Below the pieces are notes generated by a model. The model saw only the letters and a program-made list of their open reading frames with translations, searched no databases and was not told the origin of the DNA. The position numbers were made by a program, and so were the translations under genes. From a virus, in the IMG/VR virus record IMGVR_UViG_3300017963_000217, positions 1 to 64,000 of that record: a DNA stretch of 64,000 bases, one strand, 5' to 3'. This document shows positions 7,121 to 62,518 of this stretch, one piece after another (position 1 is the first letter of the stretch; every line of letters begins with the position of its first letter).

Positions 7121-7248
7121 TTAAAGTTGAAATGAATTCTGAAGAATGCCCTGAAAGATTTAAGAAATGGAATCCTCCAAAAAATGGGTATTTCTGTAAA
7201 ATCAGTAATAAAAGATGTAGTAAAACAAATTGCAAAAAGCGGGCATAG
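7069..7248 (+). CDS. Small Cys/Lys-rich protein, 59 aa
   Basis: An ATG at 7069, overlapping the previous gene out of frame, opens 59 codons and ends at 7248, inside the first bases of the tRNA-Gly. The protein is Lys-rich with four Cys spaced as Cx21-CxxxxxxCxxxxC (ECPERF...YFCKISNKRCSKTNC). There is no good ribosome site near the ATG, so a downstream start or non-expression is possible. Confidence 0.45.
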   Translation: MLEKQKNKKAVDEKSWLIKVEMNSEECPERFKKWNPPKNGYFCKISNKRCSKTNCKKRA

Positions 7249-7312
7249 CTCAGTGGTAGAGCATCTGGTTGCCATCCAGAATACGGGAGTTCGATTCTCC
7301 TTGTCCGCTCCA
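7239..7312 (+). tRNA. tRNA-Gly (GCC)
   Basis: A full cloverleaf is visible. The acceptor is GCGGGCA/TGTCCGC with one G-U, the D-arm GCTC/GAGC, the anticodon stem TCTGG/CCAGA with loop TTGCCAT (anticodon GCC), and the T-arm GGGAG TTCGATT CTCCT. The discriminator is U, as in bacterial tRNA-Gly, and CCA is encoded at 7310-7312. It decodes GGC/GGU. Confidence 0.95.
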
Positions 7313-7769: not shown

Positions 7770-8072
7770 ATGAGACCAAAAATGAAAGAACTTAAATACT
7801 GGCTTATTACCCATGCAACGGAAATCAGAGAAACAAGAAAATTACTAAAAGATGCTCAGAGGAATAGTAAAGCTACTTGGAGATTTCGAGGAGATATAAT
7901 TAGAATGGTTCCAGAGTATAGGCACCATCATATTGCATATTCTGAAATGAAAGGTAGATCTAGAGAACAAATAGAACGTCCCAGAGAAGACAACCTCCCC
8001 AATGAAAATTGGATTGAGGAAATCAAAAAGGAATACTGGGATGAACCAAAGACTTTATGTGTTAGTACGTAA
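7770..8072 (+). CDS. Hypothetical protein, 100 aa
   Basis: This gene has an AAGGAG ribosome site. The product is Arg/Glu-rich and helical, with RFRGDIIRMVPEYRHHHIAY in the middle. It overlaps the start of the peptidyl-tRNA hydrolase-like gene by 32 bases. No family is recognised. Confidence 0.7.
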   Translation: MRPKMKELKYWLITHATEIRETRKLLKDAQRNSKATWRFRGDIIRMVPEYRHHHIAYSEMKGRSREQIERPREDNLPNENWIEEIKKEYWDEPKTLCVST

Positions 8073-8331
8073 AGATTTGCCCAAGTCCTATCAAGCTGTT
8101 CAGGCTGGTCATGCAGTAGCTGAATGGTTATTGTATGATCAGTCCTGGCAAAATGAAACACTTGTCTATCTGGGAGTGAATAACGAAAACGAATTATTGG
8201 ATTGGAAAGAGAGATTGGATTTTAATAATATAAAGCACGCGTCATTTAGAGAGCCTGATATAGGAGATCAACTGACTGCAATAGCTACTTTGTCCGACGG
8301 GAAAATTTTTAAAAAGTTGAAATTAATATAA
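8041..8331 (+). CDS. PTH2-like peptidyl-tRNA hydrolase
   Basis: This 96 aa protein matches the start of the PTH2 fold: RLYVLVRKDLPKSYQAVQAGHAVAEWLL, with the conserved K11-D12-L, Q21 and H24 positions. PTH2 enzymes release peptides from peptidyl-tRNA and so recycle stalled tRNAs. The ATG at 8041 is chosen since it begins the first conserved strand; an upstream start at 8002 lies within the previous gene. It ends directly against the amber-suppressor tRNA. Recycling of tRNA during infection is a sensible role, but catalytic activity is inferred. Confidence 0.8.
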   Translation: MNQRLYVLVRKDLPKSYQAVQAGHAVAEWLLYDQSWQNETLVYLGVNNENELLDWKERLDFNNIKHASFREPDIGDQLTAIATLSDGKIFKKLKLI

Positions 8332-8406
8332 GCGCCTGTAGCATAGTGGCTAATGCAGCGGATTCTAAACCCGCTTACAAGGGTTCAATTCCCTTCGGGC
8401 GCTCCA
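8332..8406 (+). tRNA. Amber suppressor tRNA (anticodon CTA)
   Basis: The cloverleaf is complete: acceptor GCGCCTG/CGGGCGC (one U-G), D-arm GCAT/ATGC, A26, anticodon arm GCGGA-TTCTAAA-CCCGC, variable loop TTAC, T-arm AAGGG TTCAATT CCCTT, U73 and encoded CCA. Counting positions puts CTA (8365-8367) at 34-36, so it would read UAG. The 31-39 pair is an A-C mismatch. Alternative registers (for example TCT for Arg) destroy the stem. Phage suppressor tRNAs of this kind are known to recode amber in some large phages. Which amino acid is loaded cannot be read from the sequence. Confidence 0.85.
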
Positions 8407-8439: not shown

Positions 8440-8516
8440 GCCGCTATAGCTCAGTAGGCCAGAGCGCGTCATTGGTAATGACGAGGTCTCCGGTTCAATT
8501 CCGGATAGCGGCTCCA
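8440..8516 (+). tRNA. tRNA-Thr (GGT)
   Basis: Acceptor GCCGCTA/TAGCGGC, D-arm GCTC/GAGC, anticodon stem CGTCA/TGACG with loop TTGGTAA (anticodon GGT), and T-arm TCCGG TTCAATT CCGGA all pair perfectly. CCA is encoded at 8514-8516. It decodes ACC/ACU. Confidence 0.95.
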
Positions 8517-8814: not shown

Positions 8815-8885
8815 GCGGGCATAGCATAGTGGTAATGCGGGAGGATTCCAACCTCTTGACCGGGGTTCGATTCCCCGTGTCCGCT
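8815..8885 (+). tRNA. tRNA-Gly (TCC)
   Basis: Acceptor GCGGGCA/TGTCCGC (identical to the GCC isoacceptor), D-arm GCAT/ATGC, anticodon stem GGAGG/CCTCT with loop ATTCCAA (anticodon TCC), T-arm CGGGG TTCGATT CCCCG, discriminator U. CCA is not encoded (TCAA follows), so the host must add it. It decodes GGA/GGG. Confidence 0.93.
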
Positions 8886-8909
8886 CAATAACCATAGGGG
8901 AGAGAGAAA

Positions 8910-10007: not shown

Positions 10008-10083
10008 TGGGGGATAGTTCAGCGGAAGAACGTCCGGCTCTGACCCGGAAGACTCGAAGGTTCGAATCCTTCTCCCCCAGCCA
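10008..10083 (+). tRNA. tRNA-Gln (CTG)
   Basis: Acceptor TGGGGGA/TCCCCCA with U1-A72 and discriminator G73, both typical of tRNA-Gln; D-arm GTTC/GAAC; anticodon stem TCCGG/CCGGA with loop CTCTGAC (anticodon CTG); T-arm GAAGG TTCGAAT CCTTC; encoded CCA at 10081-10083. It decodes CAG. Confidence 0.93.
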
Positions 10084-23875: not shown

Positions 23876-24871
23876 ATGTCAAATAGTGGGATAGGACTAG
23901 ATGTTGGAACTAATATGTTGGTAGCGGCATCTATGGATTCAGAAGGTAATCCTGTATACAAGAAACAACGAGATGCATTTTTTAGGATTAGTCCAAAATC
24001 AGAAGTAAATAAAAAAAGCATACGTCTAGCATTGGAAGGACGGGGTGCTAATTTTATTATAGATGGGGAGGATTTTATTGTTGTTGGCGAGGACGCTTTG
24101 TATATGGCAAACGAGCGAAATGAGGAAGCTCGCAGACCTATGAGGAATGGAGTTCTGTCTCCTAAAGAAAAGTCTTCGTTACCCATGATAAAATTGATTA
24201 TAAAGAATTTAGTGGGAGAAGCTAGTAATGATGAAAAATTAGTATTTTCTGTTCCTGCTCCTCCCATTGATGGTAATTTTGACATTTTCTATCATCAAGA
24301 AATGATGAAATCCTATATTAGAGGCATGGGGTTTGAACCAGAGCCTTTGAATGAGGGGTTTGCTATCGCATTTGCAGAACTATTAGATGATAATCTAACG
24401 GGTATGTGTTTGTCTTTTGGAGCTGGTATGGTAAATTCCGTAGTAGTTTATGAAGGAGATCCTATCGTCAAGTTTTCGGTAACAAAAGGCGGTGACTGGA
24501 TAGACCAATCTGTTGCAACAGCATTGGATTATAATACCTCATTTGTTCAAATAGAAAAAGAAGAATCAGGATTTGATTTAATAAGCCCGCAAGGAAAAAT
24601 TCAAGAAGCTCTCGCCGTGTATTATAATCACTTAATAAATTATGCACTGGATAATATAATATATGAACTAAAAAGGTCCCGTTTGCCTTCTTTTAGAAAC
24701 CCTATACCAGTGATTTTATCCGGTGGTTTAACACTGGCTGATAGTTTTACTACGAAATTTAGAATGGAATCGGATAAAAAGACGTATCCATTTAAAATAA
24801 AAGAAATACGAAGAGCTGAAGACCCCATGACATGTGTTGCTCGTGGGTGTTTAATGGCTGCGATTTTATAA
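23876..24871 (+). CDS. Actin-like ATPase (ParM/MreB/Hsp70 superfamily)
   Basis: The 331 aa protein shows the actin-fold nucleotide motifs in order: phosphate-1 GIGLDVGTNMLVAA (residues 5-18), a connect-1-like NEGFAIAFAE (159-168), phosphate-2 LSFGAGMVNSVVV (179-191) and the adenosine motif PVILSGGLTLA (278-288). Length suits ParM/Alp-type proteins. Phage actins (for example the Alp families) form filaments that move DNA or position replication. The upstream coiled-coil gene and ClpP suggest one operon. Filament formation is not demonstrated by sequence; an Hsp70-like chaperone role is the alternative. Confidence 0.85.
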   Translation: MSNSGIGLDVGTNMLVAASMDSEGNPVYKKQRDAFFRISPKSEVNKKSIRLALEGRGANFIIDGEDFIVVGEDALYMANERNEEARRPMRNGVLSPKEKSSLPMIKLIIKNLVGEASNDEKLVFSVPAPPIDGNFDIFYHQEMMKSYIRGMGFEPEPLNEGFAIAFAELLDDNLTGMCLSFGAGMVNSVVVYEGDPIVKFSVTKGGDWIDQSVATALDYNTSFVQIEKEESGFDLISPQGKIQEALAVYYNHLINYALDNIIYELKRSRLPSFRNPIPVILSGGLTLADSFTTKFRMESDKKTYPFKIKEIRRAEDPMTCVARGCLMAAIL

Positions 24872-24891
24872 TTTTAAGGAGGATTGATTTA

Positions 24892-25116
24892 ATGTCTGAA
24901 GAAAGAGTTAGTGGAGAAGTGAAGTGGTTTAATGCTGAACGTGGATTCGGATTCATAACTATGGATGGTGACGAAACAAGTGAATATTTTGTACACTATA
25001 GTTACATCCAGATGGAAGGGTATAAAACTCTACGTGCCGGCCAGAAAGTCACATTCAAGTTAGTTCAGACTGATAAGGGTGTGCAAGCACAGGAAGTAAT
25101 TCCCGAAGAGGAGTAG
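24892..25116 (+). CDS. csp: Cold-shock domain protein
   Basis: The 74 aa protein is a canonical CspA-like OB fold with GEVKWFNAERGFGFITMDG (RNP1) and YFVHYS (RNP2) and a C-terminal VTFKLVQTDKGVQAQEV. These proteins bind single-stranded RNA/DNA and melt RNA structures. The ATG at 24892 is chosen for its AAGGAGG site. It ends in TAG, with the next ATG two codons later in the same frame. Confidence 0.95.
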   Translation: MSEERVSGEVKWFNAERGFGFITMDGDETSEYFVHYSYIQMEGYKTLRAGQKVTFKLVQTDKGVQAQEVIPEEE

Positions 25117-25119
25117 GAG

Positions 25120-25536
25120 ATGCTATTAGCGGAAGCGATTAGGGAAAAGGCTTACATAGAAGAATCTATTCGTGATTTACAGAAATATATGATAGCTTTA
25201 TCTATTGAGGGAGACCAAGATAGTATAAGCGGGTGTATGAGAGAGTTGGACGAATTATATAGCAGATATCAAAAGTTTTCAGTTTCTATAAATCGCACTA
25301 AAAATTCAACTACTATAAAAATAAATGATACTAAATTGAATTTGTCTGACGCCTATATAATACAGAGATCTATGGAGCATAGGCTCTCTGTATATCAGAA
25401 CATACTGGATACCTCTTTTGATCGTGAGGGGGTGTACCCTAAAATATTATTAGAAGAGTTAGAAAGGATACGATTAGACGTTAAGACTATAGGTGCAGAA
25501 ATAAATTATGCCATTTGGAATGTGGAGACTTCTTAG
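25120..25536 (+). CDS. Hypothetical helical protein, 138 aa
   Basis: The start codon is two codons after the csp TAG and in the same frame; GTAGGAG serves as ribosome site. The protein is helical and charged (YIEESIRDLQKYMIAL..., MRELDELYSRYQKF). It ends in TAG directly followed by TGA. No domain is recognised; together with the next gene it forms a compact, coupled set. Confidence 0.7.
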   Translation: MLLAEAIREKAYIEESIRDLQKYMIALSIEGDQDSISGCMRELDELYSRYQKFSVSINRTKNSTTIKINDTKLNLSDAYIIQRSMEHRLSVYQNILDTSFDREGVYPKILLEELERIRLDVKTIGAEINYAIWNVETS

Positions 25537-29003: not shown

Positions 29004-29429
29004 ATGGTAAGCAAAAGAGGTCGTCCGATAGGACATAGGCTTAGTGAATCTACTAAAGAAAAAATTAGACAAAAAAGGTTGGGAACCAATCACACTAAAG
29101 AAACTAAAGATAAAATATCCAGATCACTAAGAGCCTATTTTAGGACCAAAGATCAGCTTGCAGAGAGTATTGAATATGAGTATAGTTATTTATCAGAGGA
29201 AGCGGCTGATTGGGTAGTCGAAAATAGAGACGCCATTAATGATACTGATAGTGTTATGACTGAGAAAAGATTATTCTATTTGAATCAGTTAGAGATATCT
29301 TTGGGTAGTGACATTGAAAATATGTTTGGGCATGGAGCTACTCCAGAATTTTTTATGATGTTAAAAGAACAAATGAAAGAACTTAAATGTGCTAAATCGG
29401 ACATGGACGAGTTATATTCATTGGTATAG
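29004..29429 (+). CDS. NUMOD3-containing DNA-binding protein, terminase-adjacent
   Basis: The 141 aa protein starts RGRPIGHRLSESTKEKIRQKRLGTNHTKETKDKISRSL, two copies of the NUMOD3-type motif used by homing endonucleases to grip DNA. The rest is an acidic helical domain. It has no nuclease domain. Just upstream of the next gene and TerL, it may be a small-terminase-like protein or part of the packaging complex, or a remnant of an endonuclease. It ends in TAG two codons before the in-frame start of the next gene. Confidence 0.65.
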   Translation: MVSKRGRPIGHRLSESTKEKIRQKRLGTNHTKETKDKISRSLRAYFRTKDQLAESIEYEYSYLSEEAADWVVENRDAINDTDSVMTEKRLFYLNQLEISLGSDIENMFGHGATPEFFMMLKEQMKELKCAKSDMDELYSLV

Positions 29430-29438
29430 AGGATGAAA

Positions 29439-29969
29439 ATGGTAAAGAAGGGGCAAAGAGGTAGACCTAAGAACCCACCTAAATTTAAAGATTTATTAAA
29501 TAAATATATACCAACAGCTGAAATATTTGAAGAGGATGAGTTGAAAATGTTTGAAGGTCTGGTGGGTATATATCTAAAAGACTTTGATGAATCACAGCTT
29601 ACGGCTAACGATATAGATGATATATTTTCTATAGCTATGAATAGAGTATTGGAAATAAGGTTATTAAAGAGTAGTAAAGGGCGTACTGATGAGTTGGTAG
29701 ATGTGTCAGCAGCTATAGAAAAGCTTAGGAAGCAAACGGAGAAATTAAAGGAGAGTTTAGCTGCGAGGAGAAGAGACCGTATAGATCCTAAGAAGTACAG
29801 TGGATTATCTATTGTAGATCTGGCAGTTTCATATGATTTAGATAAAAAAAGAGAGAATATGGAACGTGCTTTGGGGATGAAAAAAGAAGAAGAGGAAGTA
29901 AGTAAGTCCGAGTTGTTAATAGGTAATAGAGATGATGAGGACGCTGGTATTATAGAAACAAGCAGGTAG
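29439..29969 (+). CDS. Small terminase subunit candidate
   Basis: The 176 aa protein lies directly before the large terminase. A basic N terminus (KKGQRGRPKNPPKF) is followed by acidic helices and a coiled coil (AAIEKLRKQTEKLKESLAARRRD), then a charged tail. Position, size and helix-coil arrangement fit TerS, but no specific motif is decisive. The ATG at 29439 is preferred over 29433, which touches the AGAGG. The stop TAG overlaps the TerL ribosome site. Confidence 0.6.
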   Translation: MVKKGQRGRPKNPPKFKDLLNKYIPTAEIFEEDELKMFEGLVGIYLKDFDESQLTANDIDDIFSIAMNRVLEIRLLKSSKGRTDELVDVSAAIEKLRKQTEKLKESLAARRRDRIDPKKYSGLSIVDLAVSYDLDKKRENMERALGMKKEEEEVSKSELLIGNRDDEDAGIIETSR

Positions 29970-29977
29970 GAGATAAC

Positions 29978-32900
29978 TTGGGGATAATTGATATTTATGA
30001 TAACATAGATGTTGTCATGGAACAGGGTACTAATCTGATCGAATACTATAGAAGTGATCCTGTTATGGCAGCGTATGATCTTTTAAAGGTGGATTTAGCG
30101 CCTGTACAGCGTTTGATATTGCGTGATATGTGGTTTAAGAATTTCACCATTACTGTAGCTGGGAGAGGTTGTGGGAAATCGGCGGACATAAATAGTTTGT
30201 CTTTTGTTGATGGTAAAGGGGTGTGTTATTTACGTGAAGAGTTTGATACTATACCTACATTTTTGCGAGATGGAGAAACTTTAGAGATAAACTCCGGCAA
30301 TAGTATATATACTTCTGAGGGGTTTAAACCTATAAAGAGGGTGTCGTTAGAGAAAAGGATTGAGGGTATTAAACTTACTACCAAAATAGGGTTAGAAAAT
30401 AAAGGTAGTAAACATCATCCAGTACTTACTATAAATGAAGGCGGTGATTTTTATTATAAACAACTGCAAGATTTTGAAGTAGGTGATTATGTGTGTATTC
30501 AACGAGGACAAAACACTTTTGGTGAAAATGAAATGCCGATTGACGATGCATATTTAATAGGGTTGTTTATTGGCGACGGTATGATTGTAGACACATATAA
30601 TCATCAAGATATAACTACCTCAGATGATTATATCATAAGTTATTGTGCTGATTATTGTGATAAGTACAACATATCGTATAGAATAGATAAAGATAAAAGA
30701 ACTGATAGTACTGTTAAAATAATATTCAAACAATTCGATTGGTTTTTTGATAAATATAATATAAAGCGGTGCCTTTCATACGATAAAGAAGTACCTTACA
30801 ATATACGTACTTTAAGTGAGAGTACTCAAGTTGAATTTTTACGTGGACTTTTTGATACTGACGGTGGGTTTGAGAGTAATGGTGTAGTTACGCTTTGTTC
30901 TGCGTCGGAAACTCTTATTAAAGAAGTTCAAATGATGTTATTAAATTTTGGAATTATAGGCAGTATTAGAGAGAAGAAAACAAAATCAAAATTTGGCAAA
31001 TCCTTTATACTAAGTATATCTGGCGATGATATTAAACTGTTCAGTGAATTTATAGGGTTTAATTTATATCGCAAGCAGAATTTACTGGATAGATATATAA
31101 AGTCAAATAAATTTAACACTAATAAGAATATTATACCGTTTATTAAAAATACTATAGTAAAGGATTTAGCAAAGAAATATGGTAGTTTTAGTTCTTTTAG
31201 TAGATTGTTTTCAAACACAAGGTATAGGTTTGATGACGGGAATAGAAAGAATTTGTCCTATGACATTTTAAATAAAATAGTTAATGTTGTAGAACTATAC
31301 AGCACAGACCCAGTTATATACAATAAATTGTTGAAAATTAGGAACAGAAATTACTATTTTGATGTAGTAAAGTCCGTAGATAAATGGTCAGGTGATTGTT
31401 ACGACTTCGAAATGGATATGGGTATTGATGTCGAACCTAATTATTTTTGTAATGGATTTATAAACCACAATACATTTCTCCTTGGAGTTAATGCTGTATT
31501 ACATGCACTGTTATATCCTGGATATAGGGTAGGTTTGATGGGCCCTGGTTTTAGGCAGAGCCTTGTATTATCAGACTCTTACACTACATTTTGGACGGAT
31601 GACGGTCTCAAATCTTCGCCGATAGAATTCTATAATTCAATAAAAGAAGGCGAAACGCTAGTACAATCCGATGTATCACAAAATCGCATTATTAGTAAGT
31701 GGAAAAATCCTGACAGGGCTTGTAGATATATTAAAACTAATAAAGGGTTTGAGTTGGCTGGTACAGTAGATCATGCCATAAAGGTACTAGATGGTGATAA
31801 TAATATAATATTTAAGGATTTACAAGACATAACTGAAAATGATTACATAGTAATTAGACATGGTTTCAATTATTTTGGCAATAATAATTCTTTGCCTAAA
31901 TTTGATTTTGATCTGAATTGGCGTACAAAGAATTGTAGAATACCCACTGAACTAACACCTGATCTATCATATTGGATGGGATTGTTGGTGGGGGATGGAT
32001 GTATTTCTATAAGCGCCACTAAAAGAAAGCAGCGTGTGAATTTTACTAATGAAGATATGGAGTTGTTAAAAAGTTTTGAGAATCTTTTAGTGGAATATTT
32101 TGTTGATGATGTTGATAATATAGATGTTAGAGACAGAAAACATAATAAAGGTTTTGATATAACTTATTTTAGTAAAAAACTAGTTCAGTTCTTATTGACT
32201 TGTGGTTTTACTAATACTACTGCTTTAGATAAAAAAGTTCCATACGTAATAAAGCGGGCTAATAGAGATAATATATGTTCTTTTTTATCTGGGCTTTTTG
32301 ATACGGATGGTCATTGTTACATACAGGATTATGATCACTATAATTCTTGTGAAGTTTCTTTAAATACCAGCTCCAGACAACTTGCTAATGAAGTACAATC
32401 AATTTTGTTGAATATAGGTATAGTTTCTTATGTCGGTATTAGTAAAAAAGCTGGCAAAAGAAAGCTTAATGGTAGAACCATACACTCTACATGTGCAACT
32501 GCGTATAAAGTTAGGATTACCGGTGTCCATAATATAATAAAGTTCAGAGATAATGTTGATTTTAGATGCGAACATAAATCTAATAAACTAAATTATTTTA
32601 TATCAAATTTAAAGAATAGACGTAGGAGTACCAGTATCTGTGTTGAATTGGGAGTAACAAAAGATATAATAGACCGTGATCCTGATAAATTTTTGAGTTA
32701 CAGAAAGTCAGGGTTGTATTTTGTAAGAATGAAGGAGTCGGATTATTTCTTTGCTCCTACGATAGATGCCGAAGTGGAAAACGAACATTGTTATTTTGCC
32801 GGTGGGTTTATAAACCACAATTCAAAATTTATTTTTAATGAAGTAGAAAAGATATATCAGAGGTCACATATAGTAAGAGAAGCTTGTGTAAAAAGACCTA

Positions 32901-34276
32901 CTAGAGGTGCAGACACCTATTCTTTGGAATTCCGTGGTACTGATAGATCGAACGGAAGTTATATAGCTGCTTTACCGGTTGGTGTTGATGGTTCTAAAAT
33001 TAGGGGGTCTCGATTTTATTTAATAGAAATAGACGAGTTAGCTCAGATGCAACCAGAAATTATTGATATGGTAATTAGACCTATGGCGGCTGTTTCTTCA
33101 GAGCCCATGCAGAGAGTTAGAGAGCGTGAACGGCAAAAGGAACTAATAAAACGAGGATTAGCATCTGAAGAGGATTTTGAAGGCGAAGCTGCTAATAAAA
33201 TGATTATGGCTTCATCTGGATATTTTAAATTCAATCATATGTGGGACAGGATGAGGGCGTATTGGAAGGCCATGAAAGATCCTAAGATTGCGGATAGATA
33301 CGCCGTACACCAAGTACCATATCAACTTATGCCAGAAGCCTTTCTTGATATGGAAAATATTAATTCTTCTAAATTACAAATGTCCACTATAGAGTTTAGG
33401 ATGGAGTATGAAGCCGCTATGGTATCTGATAGTGATGGGTTCTTTAAGGCTTCCATGCTTGATGCTTGCACCATCGGTAGTGATTTTAGTTTACGAATAG
33501 TGGGCGAGCCTGGTAAAGAATATGTAATGGGGGTTGATCCCAATCAAGGTGGGTCTGCCGCTTGTGGTGTTGTGGTTATAGAAGTGGGCGATCCTCATAA
33601 GTTAGTCTATATAAATGAGATTAAGGGCAAAACTACTCAAAAAATGACTGCGGCAATACAAGAGTTATGTGAAAATTTTAATATCGTTAAGATATTTATG
33701 GATTCTCAGGGGGGAGGAAAGCCTATAAAAGATTTACTACAGGAGGGTTATGGTAATAAAACCCCCATACTTGACATAGACGATGATTTAACTAGAAGCC
33801 ATTCGGGAAAACGTATATTGAAGATGGTTAATCCAAGTGTACAATGGATAAATGATGCTAATTTTGATACACTAGCTCTTATAGAGCATAAAGAAATCCG
33901 TTTTCCTGTAATGCCTAAGTCAGAAAAAACTGATAAAGCAGAGGATAAGACTGACGCGATATCTGAAAAATTATATGAGAAAGTAAAAGTACTTAAATCT
34001 CAAATGTTGAATATAGTTGTTACTCAAACAGCTAGAGGATCTAGGCATTTTGATACGCCTACTAAAGGACAAAACAAAGACCTTTATTCAGCTCTAATAC
34101 TTGCATGTTGGGGTGTTCGCGAGATGGATAGACAATCTATGGAGCGCGTACAAAAACTACATGCACAAGGGTTAGTGAGACCTCACAGTAAAGGATCTCA
34201 ATTTGCGCAGGCTGTGAACGCTGGCCCAGGTGAATCGTGGATGGAAAATGCTATTCCAAAGAAAAGAATAAAGTAA
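29978..34276 (+). CDS. terL: Large terminase subunit precursor with two inteins
   Basis: The TTG start follows TAGGAG. The 1432 aa reading frame holds a 580 aa terminase and two inteins (residues 68-498 and 528-948). Exteins are 29978-30178, 31472-31558 and 32822-34276. Spliced, the Walker A becomes GRGCGKT-FLLG and the next block GPGFRQ-SKFIF. Walker B FYLIEIDELAQ and the nuclease motifs MGVDPNQGG, FMDSQGGGK and DKTDAISE are in the C-terminal extein. TerL cuts concatemeric DNA and pumps it into proheads. Both inteins must be excised for ATPase function, because one sits in the P-loop. Confidence 0.95.
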   Translation: MGIIDIYDNIDVVMEQGTNLIEYYRSDPVMAAYDLLKVDLAPVQRLILRDMWFKNFTITVAGRGCGKSADINSLSFVDGKGVCYLREEFDTIPTFLRDGETLEINSGNSIYTSEGFKPIKRVSLEKRIEGIKLTTKIGLENKGSKHHPVLTINEGGDFYYKQLQDFEVGDYVCIQRGQNTFGENEMPIDDAYLIGLFIGDGMIVDTYNHQDITTSDDYIISYCADYCDKYNISYRIDKDKRTDSTVKIIFKQFDWFFDKYNIKRCLSYDKEVPYNIRTLSESTQVEFLRGLFDTDGGFESNGVVTLCSASETLIKEVQMMLLNFGIIGSIREKKTKSKFGKSFILSISGDDIKLFSEFIGFNLYRKQNLLDRYIKSNKFNTNKNIIPFIKNTIVKDLAKKYGSFSSFSRLFSNTRYRFDDGNRKNLSYDILNKIVNVVELYSTDPVIYNKLLKIRNRNYYFDVVKSVDKWSGDCYDFEMDMGIDVEPNYFCNGFINHNTFLLGVNAVLHALLYPGYRVGLMGPGFRQSLVLSDSYTTFWTDDGLKSSPIEFYNSIKEGETLVQSDVSQNRIISKWKNPDRACRYIKTNKGFELAGTVDHAIKVLDGDNNIIFKDLQDITENDYIVIRHGFNYFGNNNSLPKFDFDLNWRTKNCRIPTELTPDLSYWMGLLVGDGCISISATKRKQRVNFTNEDMELLKSFENLLVEYFVDDVDNIDVRDRKHNKGFDITYFSKKLVQFLLTCGFTNTTALDKKVPYVIKRANRDNICSFLSGLFDTDGHCYIQDYDHYNSCEVSLNTSSRQLANEVQSILLNIGIVSYVGISKKAGKRKLNGRTIHSTCATAYKVRITGVHNIIKFRDNVDFRCEHKSNKLNYFISNLKNRRRSTSICVELGVTKDIIDRDPDKFLSYRKSGLYFVRMKESDYFFAPTIDAEVENEHCYFAGGFINHNSKFIFNEVEKIYQRSHIVREACVKRPTRGADTYSLEFRGTDRSNGSYIAALPVGVDGSKIRGSRFYLIEIDELAQMQPEIIDMVIRPMAAVSSEPMQRVRERERQKELIKRGLASEEDFEGEAANKMIMASSGYFKFNHMWDRMRAYWKAMKDPKIADRYAVHQVPYQLMPEAFLDMENINSSKLQMSTIEFRMEYEAAMVSDSDGFFKASMLDACTIGSDFSLRIVGEPGKEYVMGVDPNQGGSAACGVVVIEVGDPHKLVYINEIKGKTTQKMTAAIQELCENFNIVKIFMDSQGGGKPIKDLLQEGYGNKTPILDIDDDLTRSHSGKRILKMVNPSVQWINDANFDTLALIEHKEIRFPVMPKSEKTDKAEDKTDAISEKLYEKVKVLKSQMLNIVVTQTARGSRHFDTPTKGQNKDLYSALILACWGVREMDRQSMERVQKLHAQGLVRPHSKGSQFAQAVNAGPGESWMENAIPKKRIK
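30179..31471 (+). mobile_element. Intein 1 in TerL P-loop, LAGLIDADG type, 431 aa
   Basis: It begins with Ser (residue 68, directly after GRGCGK), ends His-Asn, and is followed by Thr as +1 residue. Block B is seen as GSKHHPVLT; homing motifs are YLIGLFIGDGM and EFLRGLFDTDGGF; the C-terminal block is NYFCNGFINHN. Removal rebuilds GRGCGKT. A Ser-1, Thr+1 class 1 intein with an intact endonuclease pattern. Confidence 0.9.
31559..32821 (+). mobile_element. Intein 2 in TerL, LAGLIDADG type, 421 aa
   Basis: It begins with Ser (residue 528, after GPGFRQ) and ends His-Asn with Ser as +1. Block B is FELAGTVDHAI (TxxH); homing motifs are YWMGLLVGDGCIS and SFLSGLFDTDGHC; the C-terminal block is CYFAGGFINHN, close to that of intein 1. 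Only 29 extein residues separate the two inteins. Confidence 0.9.
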
Positions 34277-55127: not shown

Positions 55128-55859
55128 ATGAGATTTATAGATATTAGCGGTAAAAAGTTTAATAGGTGGACTGTTCTTGAATATGCTGGATTTACCGATG
55201 GTCTGGATAAACGAAGATCTTGGAAATGTAGATGTGAGTGCGGCACAATTAGAGTAGTCGCTGGCACTAGTTTAAAACTAGGCAAAAGCAAAAGCTGTGG
55301 CTGTTTAGGCAGAGAAATATCTAGCAAAAACACTAATAATAGGATAGATATGTGTGGAAAAAGATTTGGTAGGTTGTTGGTTCTAAAATTTGCTGGCCAT
55401 GATAAATATAAGTCTGCTTTATGGGAAGTTAAATGCGATTGTGGTAATATAAAAATTTTAAATGGTAATTATTTGAGAAGAGGTCATACTACTAGTTGTG
55501 GATGTTATAATTTGGAACGATCTATAGAAGCTAATACAGGTAAGAATAATCACCAATGGAAAGGTGGCATTTCTTTGTCAGATCGCAAATCCGTTAAATA
55601 TACTAAATGGCGTAGAAAAGTTATTAAAAGAGATAAATATAAATGCCAAATGTGTAATAGAACCTTATATAAATCTTTACATGCTCATCATATTTTTCCC
55701 TTCGGAGATTATGAAAAACTTAGATTCAAAGTTTAGAATGGTATATCTCTTTGTAAAAAATGCCATGAAAGTATAAAAAATAGAGAACACTGCTTTATAG
55801 ATAAATTTATAGCTATAACAAATGGTTATAAATATCGGGAGGGAATAACATTGGGGTAA
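55128..55859 (+). CDS. HNH endonuclease with in-frame amber codon
   Basis: Residues 1-202 (55128-55733) carry two zinc-ribbon repeats like the 27503 enzyme (GKKFNRWTVLEYAG...CECGT and GKRFGRLLVLKFAG...CDCGN) and the first HNH half (YKCQMCNRTLYKSLHAHHIFPFGDYEKLRFKV). TAG follows at 55734. The same frame then continues for 40 codons as NGISLCKKCHESIKNREHCF...YKYREGITLG to TAA 55859, supplying the second CxxC and the last His of the HNH. The amber sits mid-domain. Readthrough by the suppressor tRNA at 8332 would give a full 243 aa enzyme; otherwise it is a nonsense mutant. Confidence 0.75.
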
Positions 55860-58105: not shown

Positions 58106-59713
58106 ATGGGAAAAAAATATACTATAGGATATATAGAGGAAAATTTTAATAAAGAAGGTTATAAATTATTAACTAGTGAATACAATGGGTGCAAACAAAA
58201 GCTAGATTTTATATGTCCTAATGGCCATAGACATAATATAAGTTTTGATAAATGGTTAAAAGGCCAAAGATGTTATTACTGTAATGGTAATGTGAGATTG
58301 AGTAACACAGAAGTAAAAAGAGAATTTGAAGAAAATGGATATATATTATTATCTCAATATAAAAACAGCGGCACTAAATTGAAATATAAATGCCCTCAAG
58401 GCCATATAGGTGAGATGAAGTGGGATCATTTTAGGGACGGTCATAGATGTCCAGAATGTTCGGGGAATAAACCTATTAGTAGAGAAAAGATATCCGCTAG
58501 ATTTAGCTCAATGGGTTATAAATTTTTAGATAAGATAAATAACAACGGTATTAGACGATTGTCTTATGTTTGCGATAAAGGTCATTATGGAGAAACCACA
58601 TGGTATAACTTTAACAAAGGTATAAGATGTAATGAATGCGCGGGCAAAGCAAAAAAGACGGTGGATTTTTTACGAAATGAATTTAACACAGAGGGATACG
58701 CACTTGTAACAGAAAATTATGAAAACTGTCACCAAAAATTACATTTAGTATGCCCTAATGGTCATAATTATTATGTATCATGGGATAATTGGAATAATAA
58801 AAACTCTCGTTGTACGAAATGTAGTGAATGGGGCAGATCTAATCAAGAAACTGAGTTATTCGAGTTTTTGAATGGTATATGTGACAAAATAATTAGAAAT
58901 GATAGATCATTAATAAGCCCTTATGAGATTGATTTTGTAATACCTGAAAAGAATGTTGCTATAGAATATTGCGGCTTATACTGGCATTCTGAATTAGCTG
59001 GTAGAAATAGGAATTATCATATAGATAAATTAGATAAATGTCAATCCAAGGGTTATAGACTTATAACTATTTTTGAGGATGAATTTGTAAATCGTAAAGA
59101 AATTGTTTTTTCAAGGCTCAAAACTATTCTTGGTTTAAATAGTAATAAGATATTTGCTAGAGATTGTTTAGTAAAAGAGATATCTACTAATGAGGCATCC
59201 GAGTTTTGTAATAAACATCATTTACAAGGATATCACGGTTCATCAATTAAAATAGGTGCTTTTTATAAAAATAAATTAGTATCAGTAATGACTTTTTCTA
59301 AACCATCTATAGCTAAAGGTAGTAAATATAAAGAAGATTTTATTTGGGAACTGTCTAGGTTTTGTTCCATCCAAGACTATATTATAATTGGTATAGCTTC
59401 AAAGTTATTAAAATTTTTTGAAAGAAATTACAAATGGAATGAGATATTTTCATATGCAGATAGAAGATGGTCTGATGGTAATTTATATATAAAAATGGGA
59501 TTTGAATATTCTAGTATTACTACTCCTAACTATTGGTATTTGAGTAAACAATCAAGAATTCATAGATTTGCTTTGCGTAAAACAAAAGAGGATCCTAAGG
59601 ATCAAACAGAATGGCAAATAAGAAAATATGATGGTTGGAATAGAATATGGGATTGTGGGAATTTGAAATATAAAAAAATTAATGCCTCATATTTAAGCAA
59701 CTATGTTGCTTAG
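58106..59713 (+). CDS. Large homing endonuclease with zinc repeats and Vsr/EDxHD-type nuclease
   Basis: The 535 aa protein has four N-terminal repeats of about 60 residues. Each has F-x-x-x-GY...L-x-F/Y-x-C-P/D-x-GH...W...RC-x-x-C, a treble-clef/zinc-ribbon array. A nuclease domain then follows at about residues 265-320: PYEIDFVIPEKNVAIEYCGLYWHSE. This E-D-E-HS pattern fits the Vsr-like EDxHD homing enzymes (I-Bth0305I-type). A C-terminal GNAT-like fold region (FCNKHHLQGYHG...FSYADRRWSDGNLYIKMGF) follows. It stands free just before an intron-bearing gene, which it might mobilise. It ends TAG with TAA a few codons on. Confidence 0.82.
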   Translation: MGKKYTIGYIEENFNKEGYKLLTSEYNGCKQKLDFICPNGHRHNISFDKWLKGQRCYYCNGNVRLSNTEVKREFEENGYILLSQYKNSGTKLKYKCPQGHIGEMKWDHFRDGHRCPECSGNKPISREKISARFSSMGYKFLDKINNNGIRRLSYVCDKGHYGETTWYNFNKGIRCNECAGKAKKTVDFLRNEFNTEGYALVTENYENCHQKLHLVCPNGHNYYVSWDNWNNKNSRCTKCSEWGRSNQETELFEFLNGICDKIIRNDRSLISPYEIDFVIPEKNVAIEYCGLYWHSELAGRNRNYHIDKLDKCQSKGYRLITIFEDEFVNRKEIVFSRLKTILGLNSNKIFARDCLVKEISTNEASEFCNKHHLQGYHGSSIKIGAFYKNKLVSVMTFSKPSIAKGSKYKEDFIWELSRFCSIQDYIIIGIASKLLKFFERNYKWNEIFSYADRRWSDGNLYIKMGFEYSSITTPNYWYLSKQSRIHRFALRKTKEDPKDQTEWQIRKYDGWNRIWDCGNLKYKKINASYLSNYVA

Positions 59714-59982: not shown

Positions 59983-61065
59983 AAGATAGTTGCGTCCTTG
60001 TTGGGTAACCAACATGTAAAACTTCATGATATGCTGGAAACTCCCACTAAGTTTTTACTACTAACCGATATCGGAGTAATAATGTAAAAAATAGGGACAA
60101 TCAGCAGGGGAGATTTTATAATGAGAAAAAAAATGCCTTATAGTAAGGATGAATTACAAAAGTTGTATATGGAAGAGGGATCTATAGGTAAAGTAGCATC
60201 AAAATTATCTAAACCTTATAGTACTGTTAGATATTGGTATGAAAAAAATGATATCAAAGTACAACCTTCATGCATGACTATCTACCAAGAATTAAGAGAA
60301 ACCCCCATGTCACAATTTCAAAAATCTATAGTTTTGGGTTCGGTTCTTGGTGATGGGAATTTGAAATTAGCCCCCCATAGTAAAAATGCTAGACTAAGAA
60401 TTGGTCATTGTAAAAAGCAAATAGGTTATTTAAAATGGAAATACGATATGCTACAACCCTTTTCTAGAAAATTTGGTTTAGATCAGCCTGCCAAAGAAAA
60501 AATTTATAAAGGGAAAAAGTTTAAGTCGACTGATTTTTACAGATTTCATACGGTAGTTCATCCAGATATTACTTATTATTATAGAAAATATTATAATAAG
60601 GGTAACAAAATAGTTCACAGAGACGTTATAGATGAACTTGATTTAATATCACTTGCTATATGGTTTGGTGATGATGGATCTTCATACAGAGATAAAAGAA
60701 CTGATGCTGTTATGTGCTCATTTGCTACTAATTCATTTAGTTATAAGGAACAAGTAGTGCTAGTAAAGGCTTTAAGAAGGTTCTTTGGTGGTACCATAAA
60801 AATAGATGAGCAAGGTAATAAAGGCAGATCAGATTTACTTTTAAGAATGTATAAGACCGTTTATGTAAAAGACTTTTTGTACAATATTAAATCAATTTTA
60901 CCAAAATGTATTCATTATAAAATCGCCCTCAGAGACTAGGTATGAAGCTCCTATTTTATTATAGGATGAAGGTATAGTCCGAACTTACAGGAAACTGTAA
61001 GAGGGAATGCCGAAGAGCTTCCCCGCCTAACAGGTAAAGCTGAGGTCATTATAAGTAACAGATTG
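59983..61065 (+). mobile_element. Group I intron in the tail gene, 1083 nt
   Basis: P1: exon GACGT pairs with intron GCGTC, with U-G at the 5' splice site (after 59982). The core shows GATATGCTGGAAA, TCAGAGACTAGGTATGAAGC (R) and AAGGTATAGTCCGAAC (S), then a TTACAGGAAACTGTAA hairpin and GCCGAAGAGC. It ends AAGTAACAGATTG (omega G at 61065). Joining the exons restores the frame. It is close to the capsid intron in core and 3' end but carries an unrelated endonuclease gene. Confidence 0.9.
60121..60939 (+). CDS. LAGLIDADG homing endonuclease (WHG type) within the tail-gene intron
   Basis: The 272 aa protein has an N-terminal helix-turn-helix-like region (YSKDELQKLYMEEGSIGKVASKL), then LAGLIDADG_WHG-type motifs IVLGSVLGDGNLKLAP (about residues 69-84) and SLAIWFGDDGSSYRD (about 178-192). 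The stop TAG is inside the R element of the ribozyme. The ORF starts 139 nt into the intron with GGGGAGA upstream. The two acidic catalytic positions are present. Confidence 0.88.
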   Translation: MRKKMPYSKDELQKLYMEEGSIGKVASKLSKPYSTVRYWYEKNDIKVQPSCMTIYQELRETPMSQFQKSIVLGSVLGDGNLKLAPHSKNARLRIGHCKKQIGYLKWKYDMLQPFSRKFGLDQPAKEKIYKGKKFKSTDFYRFHTVVHPDITYYYRKYYNKGNKIVHRDVIDELDLISLAIWFGDDGSSYRDKRTDAVMCSFATNSFSYKEQVVLVKALRRFFGGTIKIDEQGNKGRSDLLLRMYKTVYVKDFLYNIKSILPKCIHYKIALRD

Positions 61066-62518
61066 ACCTGCTGTCGCAGTTACACTTAACACTAACGATT
61101 GGGGCGATGTAAAAACCATGGCCGTATTAGCACAAGTTCCAGCAGCTAAACTTGCAATGGACGCTAACGCTACTAATAGTAATGCTAACTTAGCTACTGT
61201 TGACTCAAGTCTTACAGAGTTGGGTTATTACCATCATGGTGCATGTTTAGCTGACTTTGCGGTTACTTGTGGTAACTTAACTGGTGTTACTTTATGGGCT
61301 CCAGTTCAGTCAGAATGTGATCTTGGTACACTAGCTAATAATATAGACCAGACTATGGTAATGGACGAAGTCTACGTAAATAGTCTTGAATTTGGCTATA
61401 CTACTGGTGCAAATGCTACTGAGAACTACGGTGCTGAGACTGACCAAAAGCTATGGTTGCTGAATGATGGTAGATTTGTTAACTACGAAGAACTAGATTA
61501 TGATAGTGGTGATTTTACCACTTCTGGTACTTTAGCTTCTGGTGTTACTATAGCCACATTTAGTGATGGAAGTTTGGGATTCTTAAGAACCGATGTTGAT
61601 GGCGCTAGGGCAGTTACCTATTTTGATGCAAGTGCGAACAATGGGCTTGGTGAACAAGTTAATTGGGCAGTTGTTTCTGGTACTGCTGCTGCTACTAGTA
61701 CATTTGTGTATGATGAATCTACTGATACCTTGTATCTACCTACTGTTGGTATAGCTCCAGCGGCCGGCGACAAGATATTTGCTGTATACTCAGCAGACGG
61801 TTATGTAACTGCTATGGGTAATAAATATTTTGAAATTCTAGATGTTACTGAGCGCCCAGATACTATTGGCGCTTTGAGACAGGGTCAGGTAGAGATTTAT
61901 ATTGTATCTGATACTGACGCATCATATGAGAATGCATGGAGATTGACTGCGGTTACTATTACTTCTGACCTTACGCGTGAAGCTTTGGCTGAACTTGGTC
62001 ATTTGGGTCCATATGATAGGCCGTTGACAGTTCCAATACCAATTACAGTTACCATAGACACCACTGCTGGTGACTTGGAACATTGGTCAAGATTTGCTGA
62101 TAGGTATTCCGAGTTTGCTAATGATACTATGATAGATATAGATCTAGCAGATTTATTCTCATCGGAAGATCTTAAGTTAGTGGTTAAGGTATTTGCTCAG
62201 ACCGACGAAGAAGCTGGTGGAACAGGTTCTAATAGAACTATTGCTGTCGGTTCAGATCTTATTGGTCAGGATTATTTTTGGTCAGATTCTGCGGCAAGTT
62301 CTGTAAAGGGAACCATTGCTGCTGGTCAAACTGAAAGAGCACTTAAGACTATCGTTGTTGAACATCTTAAGATTACGGATGAGGCTTACACATTGGATCT
62401 TGGAACAAACGCTACTCAGACATTTGGGTTTCGTTCAACCAATGATCTCTATGTTGTTAAGGGAGACCTTGATATAGATCATATTACTGGTGGTAATAAG
62501 ATTAGGCGTAATGCTTAA
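61066..62518 (+). CDS. Major tail protein candidate, exon 2
   Basis: Exon 2 supplies residues 52-535 (first base completes the GTA Val codon). It is rich in Asp, Ala, Thr, Gly and strands (LVVKVFAQTDEEAGG..., FDASANNGLGEQ), with a central insertion-type domain (residues about 150-260) of Ser/Thr-rich strands. LTREALAELGHLGPYDRPLTVPIPITVTI is the part most like tail-tube cores. A strong stem-loop follows. Assigned mainly by context; a virion tube protein is likely. Confidence 0.75.

Follow-up and report, generated by a model that had tools for sequence, protein, structure and literature searches.

The gene at 8332-8406 belongs to a tailed phage with the standard genetic code and encodes, with a probability of about 0.6, a functional tRNA that reads amber codons; this tRNA would be charged by the host, likely by GlyRS, and would permit partial readthrough of UAG, from which one HNH endonuclease gene of the same genome could gain. 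The window, i.e. the whole 64,000-nucleotide stretch of DNA analyzed, is part of a 99,386-base IMG/VR phage record, the remainder of which was examined too (Table 1). Amber tRNAs are already known from phages whose code is unchanged, such as Stenotrophomonas phage Summit (PMC9022506); new here are the conservation of such a tRNA in a clade, its stem signature and the occurrence of UAG inside an HNH active site. Amber tRNAs of standard-code phages are a puzzle, being retained yet lacking obvious targets, and two handles on it emerge: a stem signature that marks phage amber tRNAs (open 31-39 and, to a lesser degree, 27-43) and an HNH gene predicted to be suppression-dependent.

Table 1. Coordinates of the features discussed, in window positions.
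Feature	Position	Strand	Basis or remark
tRNA-Gly(GCC), same cluster as the amber tRNA	7239..7312	+	ARAGORN; in 4/4 phages
ORF of unknown function, synteny marker upstream of the CTA tRNA	7770..8072	+	tblastn and neighbourhood; 4/4 phages
PTH2-like (peptidyl-tRNA hydrolase family) small ORF	8002..8331	+	Pfam PTH2, PHROG 3668
tRNA gene, anticodon CTA (amber), A31.C39, U73, encoded CCA	8332..8406	+	ARAGORN, RF00005; kept in three relatives
tRNA-Thr(GGT), same cluster	8440..8516	+	ARAGORN; G009 also has one
tRNA-Gly(TCC), closest in-genome relative of the CTA tRNA (74% identity)	8815..8886	+	ARAGORN
tRNA-Gln(CTG), same cluster	10008..10083	+	ARAGORN
Two adjacent ORFs in frame across UAG, the second TerS-like by position	29004..29969	+	Rejected as readthrough fusion
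HNH homing-type endonuclease gene, UAG at 55734-55736 within the HNH motif	55128..55859	+	Pfam HNH of the read-through ORF, homologues

ARAGORN assigned the anticodon CTA to the gene, which scored 63.2 bits against Rfam RF00005 (E 2.4e-11; gathering 29), similar to the 64-70 bits obtained for the window's other four tRNAs. In the sequence, CTA occupies positions 34-36, and both U73 and CCA are encoded. The Infernal alignment accommodates the entire cloverleaf with a single non-standard pair, A opposite C at 31-39, leaving an anticodon stem of four pairs with one end open. The first-pass annotation had described a phage-encoded gene with a full cloverleaf, CTA at 34-36 and an encoded CCA, and had proposed running a tRNA finder; ARAGORN, the covariance model and the structural alignment all agree with this description, and the gene sits in a phage record. 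Its first base directly abuts the stop codon of the PTH2-like ORF, which matches PHROG 3668 'hydrolase' at 1.8e-8 and Pfam PTH2 at E 2.8e-4 (21.5 bits, slightly under the cut-off of 23). The remainder of the 99,386-base record contains no further tRNA. An exact-match search of IMG/VR with the anticodon arm gave 0 matches, and the sole match of the tRNA in BLAST against cultured phages, a Vibrio phage tRNA-His (77% over 62 bases), was uninformative. In IMG/VR, four different contigs (L068, L069, L071 and L073) carry an identical CTA tRNA followed by tRNA-Lys(CTT), with a GCGGA/CCCGC arm as in the window tRNA and an unrelated body.

The label 'tRNA-Pyl' given to the gene by ARAGORN signifies CTA and nothing more. 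In a tRNA-Pyl a single base links the acceptor and D stems, the anticodon stem has six pairs and the variable loop three bases. The window tRNA has two bases, four pairs and four bases at these places, on which grounds tRNA-Pyl was discarded, and PF01409 (PylRS) had no match in the whole record.

Relatives were gathered through two proteins, the TerS-like one and one encoded in the neighbourhood, by fetching the loci related to either. Three of these records (G006, G009 and G019) contain tRNA clusters, and every one includes a CTA tRNA, located in all four phages behind a homologue of the ORF at 7770-8072. Gly-GCC, Gly-TCC, a Gln tRNA and the CTA tRNA are common to the four clusters; the PTH2-like orthologue adjoins the CTA tRNA in G019 too and was not found in G006 or G009. 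The four CTA tRNAs share 69-81% pairwise identity, and in a structure-based alignment nine stem pairs have both sides changed and are still paired. The anticodon, U32, U33, A37, G3-C70 and U73 are invariant, and 31-39 is paired in none of the four (A.C, A.C, A.C and A.A). Since the fold persists in four diverged copies, nine of its pairs having changed in compensating fashion, the cloverleaf is not due to chance; these changes, together with the synteny, argue that the amber tRNA is kept up by selection. This conservation had been missed in the first-pass annotation.

The recurrence of an open 31-39 pair was evaluated in a survey in which IMG/VR was scanned with patterns leaving 31 and 39 free, ARAGORN was applied to all fetched loci and sequences were clustered at 88% identity, giving 95 CTA clusters and 564 other tRNAs among the matches listed. 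Within this survey, which uses one pattern family and clusters without phylogenetic independence, 31-39 was unpaired in 38/95 CTA clusters (40.0%) versus 16/564 others (2.8%; Fisher p=3e-23, among the matches listed). The mismatch rate was 5.3% in a stem-matched control of other listed tRNAs with the same G29G30/C40C41. At 27-43, where the first pattern imposes G-C, mismatches occurred in 33/95 CTA clusters (34.7%) versus 69/564 others (12.2%; p=3e-7) among the matches listed. When every stem pair was compared in the same matches, the acceptor stem, the T stem and 28-42 were equally paired in CTA and other tRNAs. CTA tRNAs from cellular genomes, a small set with several near copies, had 31-39 paired in 12/12 and 27-43 open in 8/12. 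By phage code, 31-39 was mismatched in 13/28 standard and 3/10 recoded phages among the matches listed, as judged from noisy local coding-density calls on short loci; a link between the mismatch and UAG recoding was dropped because these calls are too noisy. A weak anticodon stem is a common trait of phage amber tRNAs and near-absent in ordinary phage tRNAs. The A-C pair had been called unusual in the first-pass annotation, which is right for tRNAs overall (2.8% mismatched) but not among phage amber tRNAs, 40% of which share the open pair, so that it is to be seen as a trait of the class rather than a defect.

The open pair invites two other readings of the gene. If the anticodon frame were misread, the gene would be a tRNA-Arg(UCU) with a nine-base loop and would decode AGA, which is frequent (28.2 per 1000) and the principal Arg codon of this genome; no Arg tRNA is present. 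TCT does follow a T in the loop ATTCTAAAC, and where U32 is present, TTCTAA might be the loop of an Arg UCU tRNA displaced by one position. However, the Arg frame pairs 2/5 stem positions against 4/5 for the CTA frame, and the listed Arg(TCT) tRNAs have A20 in 23/26 and a Watson-Crick 31-39 in 26/26. Among the listed U32 CTA tRNAs with the mismatch, A20 occurs in 1/27 and the shifted frame pairs no better, mostly worse. In the C32 subset, where a frame shift is impossible, 31-39 is still mismatched in 11/59 of the matches listed (p=9e-6; p=0.013 versus the stem-matched control). The window tRNA has C20 and U73 where Arg wants A20 and A/G73, and its 31-39 is unpaired in the Arg frame as well; tRNA-Arg(UCU) was excluded on these grounds and is very improbable. 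Alternatively, A31.C39 could reflect decay of a relic, inert gene, as the unpaired position itself and the failure to find a target might suggest. This is improbable given the nine compensated pairs and the invariant anticodon in four phages, and because, among the matches listed, phage CTA tRNAs have their mismatches at 31-39 and 27-43 only, their acceptor and T stems being paired as well as those of other tRNAs.

Two described systems bear on what the loosened stem of a functional amber tRNA might do. The yeast UAG suppressor sup70-65 is a tRNA-Gln(CUG) that owes this activity to an A-C mismatch at 31-39, which relaxes wobble (PMC3664417); it shares both the mismatch and UAG suppression with the window tRNA, but is a eukaryotic laboratory mutant whose CUG anticodon reads UAG by first-base wobble. 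With 27-43 opened, leaving a 4-bp anticodon stem, stop readthrough is promoted for tRNA-Trp and for amber variants in E. coli (PMC13092985). Here too a shortened stem is tied to stop reading, but tRNA-Trp CCA is open at the top pair and near-cognate for UGA, whereas the window tRNA is open at the bottom pair and fully cognate for UAG. These cases make an open end of the anticodon stem a plausible means of raising or relaxing stop reading. Recurrent use of an open stem by phage amber tRNAs was not found in the open-licence papers searched, and the word 'phage' is absent from PMC13092985. As a class, phage amber tRNAs may have repeatedly evolved the 31-39-opened stem as a way of adjusting decoding, so as either to outcompete release factor 1 or to recognize near-cognates such as UAA/CAG in addition to UAG; the window tRNA would then suppress weakly and in a relaxed manner, inserting Gly, and catalytic HNH endonuclease would arise only upon expression of this tRNA. 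Taken as a whole, this proposal is tentative and on balance doubtful.

The code of the phage is unchanged and UAG is not reassigned. Stops of the 92 + strand ORFs of the whole 99.4-kb record are TAA in 73, TAG in 14 and TGA in 5, and tblastn of all ORFs of the record versus five relatives placed UAG only at gene edges and never inside alignable gene bodies. TAG makes up 15% of stops in this record, 17, 8 and 21% in the relatives with a CTA tRNA and 12 and 10% in two relatives without a detected one, the second of which is a partial contig that may stop short of the tRNA region; across these six genomes, detection of a CTA tRNA therefore makes little difference to the share. As UAG is a stop here, the amber tRNA can act by readthrough only, in line with the initial claims that UAG ends several real genes and that its use would be readthrough rather than a clean code change. 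The association of CTA tRNAs with code 15 in gut phages, crAss-like ones among them (PMC9523058, PMC10879173), prompts the idea that UAG is read as sense (e.g. as Gln under code 15) during some stage of the phage cycle. In those phages UAG lies within many genes, which are broken if it is taken as a stop, and is read as Gln, a pattern that was not found in this record. Here UAG is a normal stop that ends genes across much of the record, ORFs of 1161, 1432, 1656 and 7006 aa stay open in the standard code, and the acceptor bases are Gly-like, with U73 and G1-C72 speaking against Gln, all of which leaves a code change with hardly any probability.

Stop usage varies along the record: in the first part of the window (1-24871) the 30-odd + strand ORFs, the tRNA region included, all end in TAA, and TAG and TGA stops first appear with the gene at 24832. 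The next stop after UAG lies at a median of 5 versus 11 codons (p=0.07), a hint of stop-codon backup. Also, AGGA/GAGG-like sites hold UAG stops (22/67) more often than TAA stops (53/368).

The acceptor end offers clues to the amino acid. The bacterial glycine identity set comprises U73, G1-C72, C2-G71, G3-C70, C35 and C36 (PMC9976931, Table 1); elements expected of other amino acids were U1-A72 and G73 for Gln, G2-C71 for Cys and A20 for Arg. All four acceptor elements of Gly are present in the window tRNA and in that of G009, and the other two relatives deviate by one pair each (U2-A71 in G019, U1-A72 in G006). The window tRNA thus fits bacterial tRNA-Gly rather than Gln, bearing out the earlier remark that U73 is not the discriminator expected for Gln, and the tRNA nearest to it is the phage's own Gly-TCC. 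C35 and C36 are replaced by U35 and A36, inevitably with CTA, for which reason the gene is not filed as a tRNA-Gly and charging with Gly is a prediction only, which we hold at somewhat less than even odds. Two class II synthetase families were profile-searched in the record and gave no match, suggesting that the charging enzyme, and hence the charging of the amber tRNA, probably comes from the host; release factor 1/2 likewise had no match in the record.

Judged from its sequence, the gene is best read as encoding an amber suppressor of weak and relaxed action, to which a host synthetase would attach an amino acid, probably Gly. It would be co-transcribed with the surrounding + strand genes and then processed, and the tRNA would be charged most likely by GlyRS, given its G1-C72, C2-G71, G3-C70 and U73. 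It would compete with release factor 1 at UAG, causing partial readthrough, and the loosening at 31-39 seen in many phage amber tRNAs probably raises or relaxes stop reading, if the yeast and E. coli tRNAs are a guide. Ordinary UAG-ended genes might tolerate the suppression, because most have another stop a few codons on. The gene of this genome that could gain is the HNH endonuclease, whose catalytic motif is cut by UAG.

For every TAG-ended gene of the record the read-through extension was computed. The HNH ORF as terminated spans 55128-55736; reading the UAG adds 40 codons, up to a TAA at 55857-55859. The UAG, which the first-pass annotation had overlooked, separates the motif's histidine from its asparagine-glycine (LHAHHIFPFGDYEKLRFKV-TAG-NGISLCKKCHESIKNRE) and occupies a position that is Ser in homologues and Asp in an intact paralogue of the same genome (27503-28258). 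The truncated ORF has no Pfam HNH match, but a match of 6.4e-7 over residues 173-218 appears once the UAG is read, and matches to several PHROG HNH families become better by many orders of magnitude. We infer that the endonuclease is complete only when UAG is read and that its activity would depend on suppression. With a single genome as the basis, the amber may be tolerated through suppression or may be ordinary decay of a homing endonuclease, the gene simply dying. No copy of the HNH gene was seen in the three relatives with a CTA tRNA, two of which are partial, so the amber tRNA is older than the presence of the HNH gene here; at best the gene benefits from suppression already in place, and it does not explain why the clade keeps the tRNA.

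Other candidates were rejected as readthrough fusions. The ORF at 29004-29429 and the TerS-like ORF (from 29433) have the UAG in 14/18 sequences, a set that includes G000 and its near-identical or duplicate contigs, but the frame is kept in some only, and this UAG frequently lies across the ribosome-binding site of the ORF that follows. The cold-shock ORF at 24832-25116 with 25120-25536 was also dismissed. When stops were compared across six genomes, no orthologue group had both a conserved UAG and a conserved extension, and interrupted genes suggested by a coding-potential scan across stops in the six genomes were mostly tandem gene pairs.

Such a pattern, a conserved tRNA with no conserved target in the shared phage genes, could also mean that the tRNA acts outside the phage genome, on UAG in messages of the host or of competing mobile elements, or that it replaces or evades a host-attacked tRNA, the phage UAGs being merely tolerated. 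Phage Summit, with a published suppressor tRNA, the standard code and no target found (PMC9022506), is a precedent. However, the record gives no indication of any particular host target, and the contigs of the relatives are incomplete, so that a phage target may go unseen; an outside target is accordingly an unlikely explanation, if one to be taken seriously. Summit resembles the present phage in size (about 96 kb) and in having five tRNAs, including one that reads amber, and a dozen UAG-ended genes. It differs in its GC content (58.5%), in that an anticodon-stem mismatch is undiscussed for it, and by the HNH gene with internal UAG found here (PMC9022506). No kinship with Summit was shown in this analysis.

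As for the host, the terminase has only distant matches among cultured phages, and a 400-aa conserved protein has no relative in GTDB contigs. The terminase large subunit ORF (29978-34276, 1432 aa) has two matches to intein splicing domains, along with LAGLIDADG endonuclease domains; its interpretation as a tape measure protein, with the preceding pair as tail chaperones, was ruled out by this assignment. Ahead of the gene at 61118-62518 are a LAGLIDADG endonuclease ORF and a group I intron-like RNA (60857-61001, within 60121-61118; 38.1 bits, under the Rfam cut-off). Homologues of that gene in G004 and G005 begin roughly 50-70 codons earlier, so that a 5' exon is possibly located upstream of it. 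Past the end of the window, record positions 64770-85790 (L008/L009) are taken up by one ORF of 7006 aa, which has an orthologue in G005. Finally, the 535-aa protein encoded at 58106-59713 has CapR-homology and Mom-like (DNA modification) domain matches.
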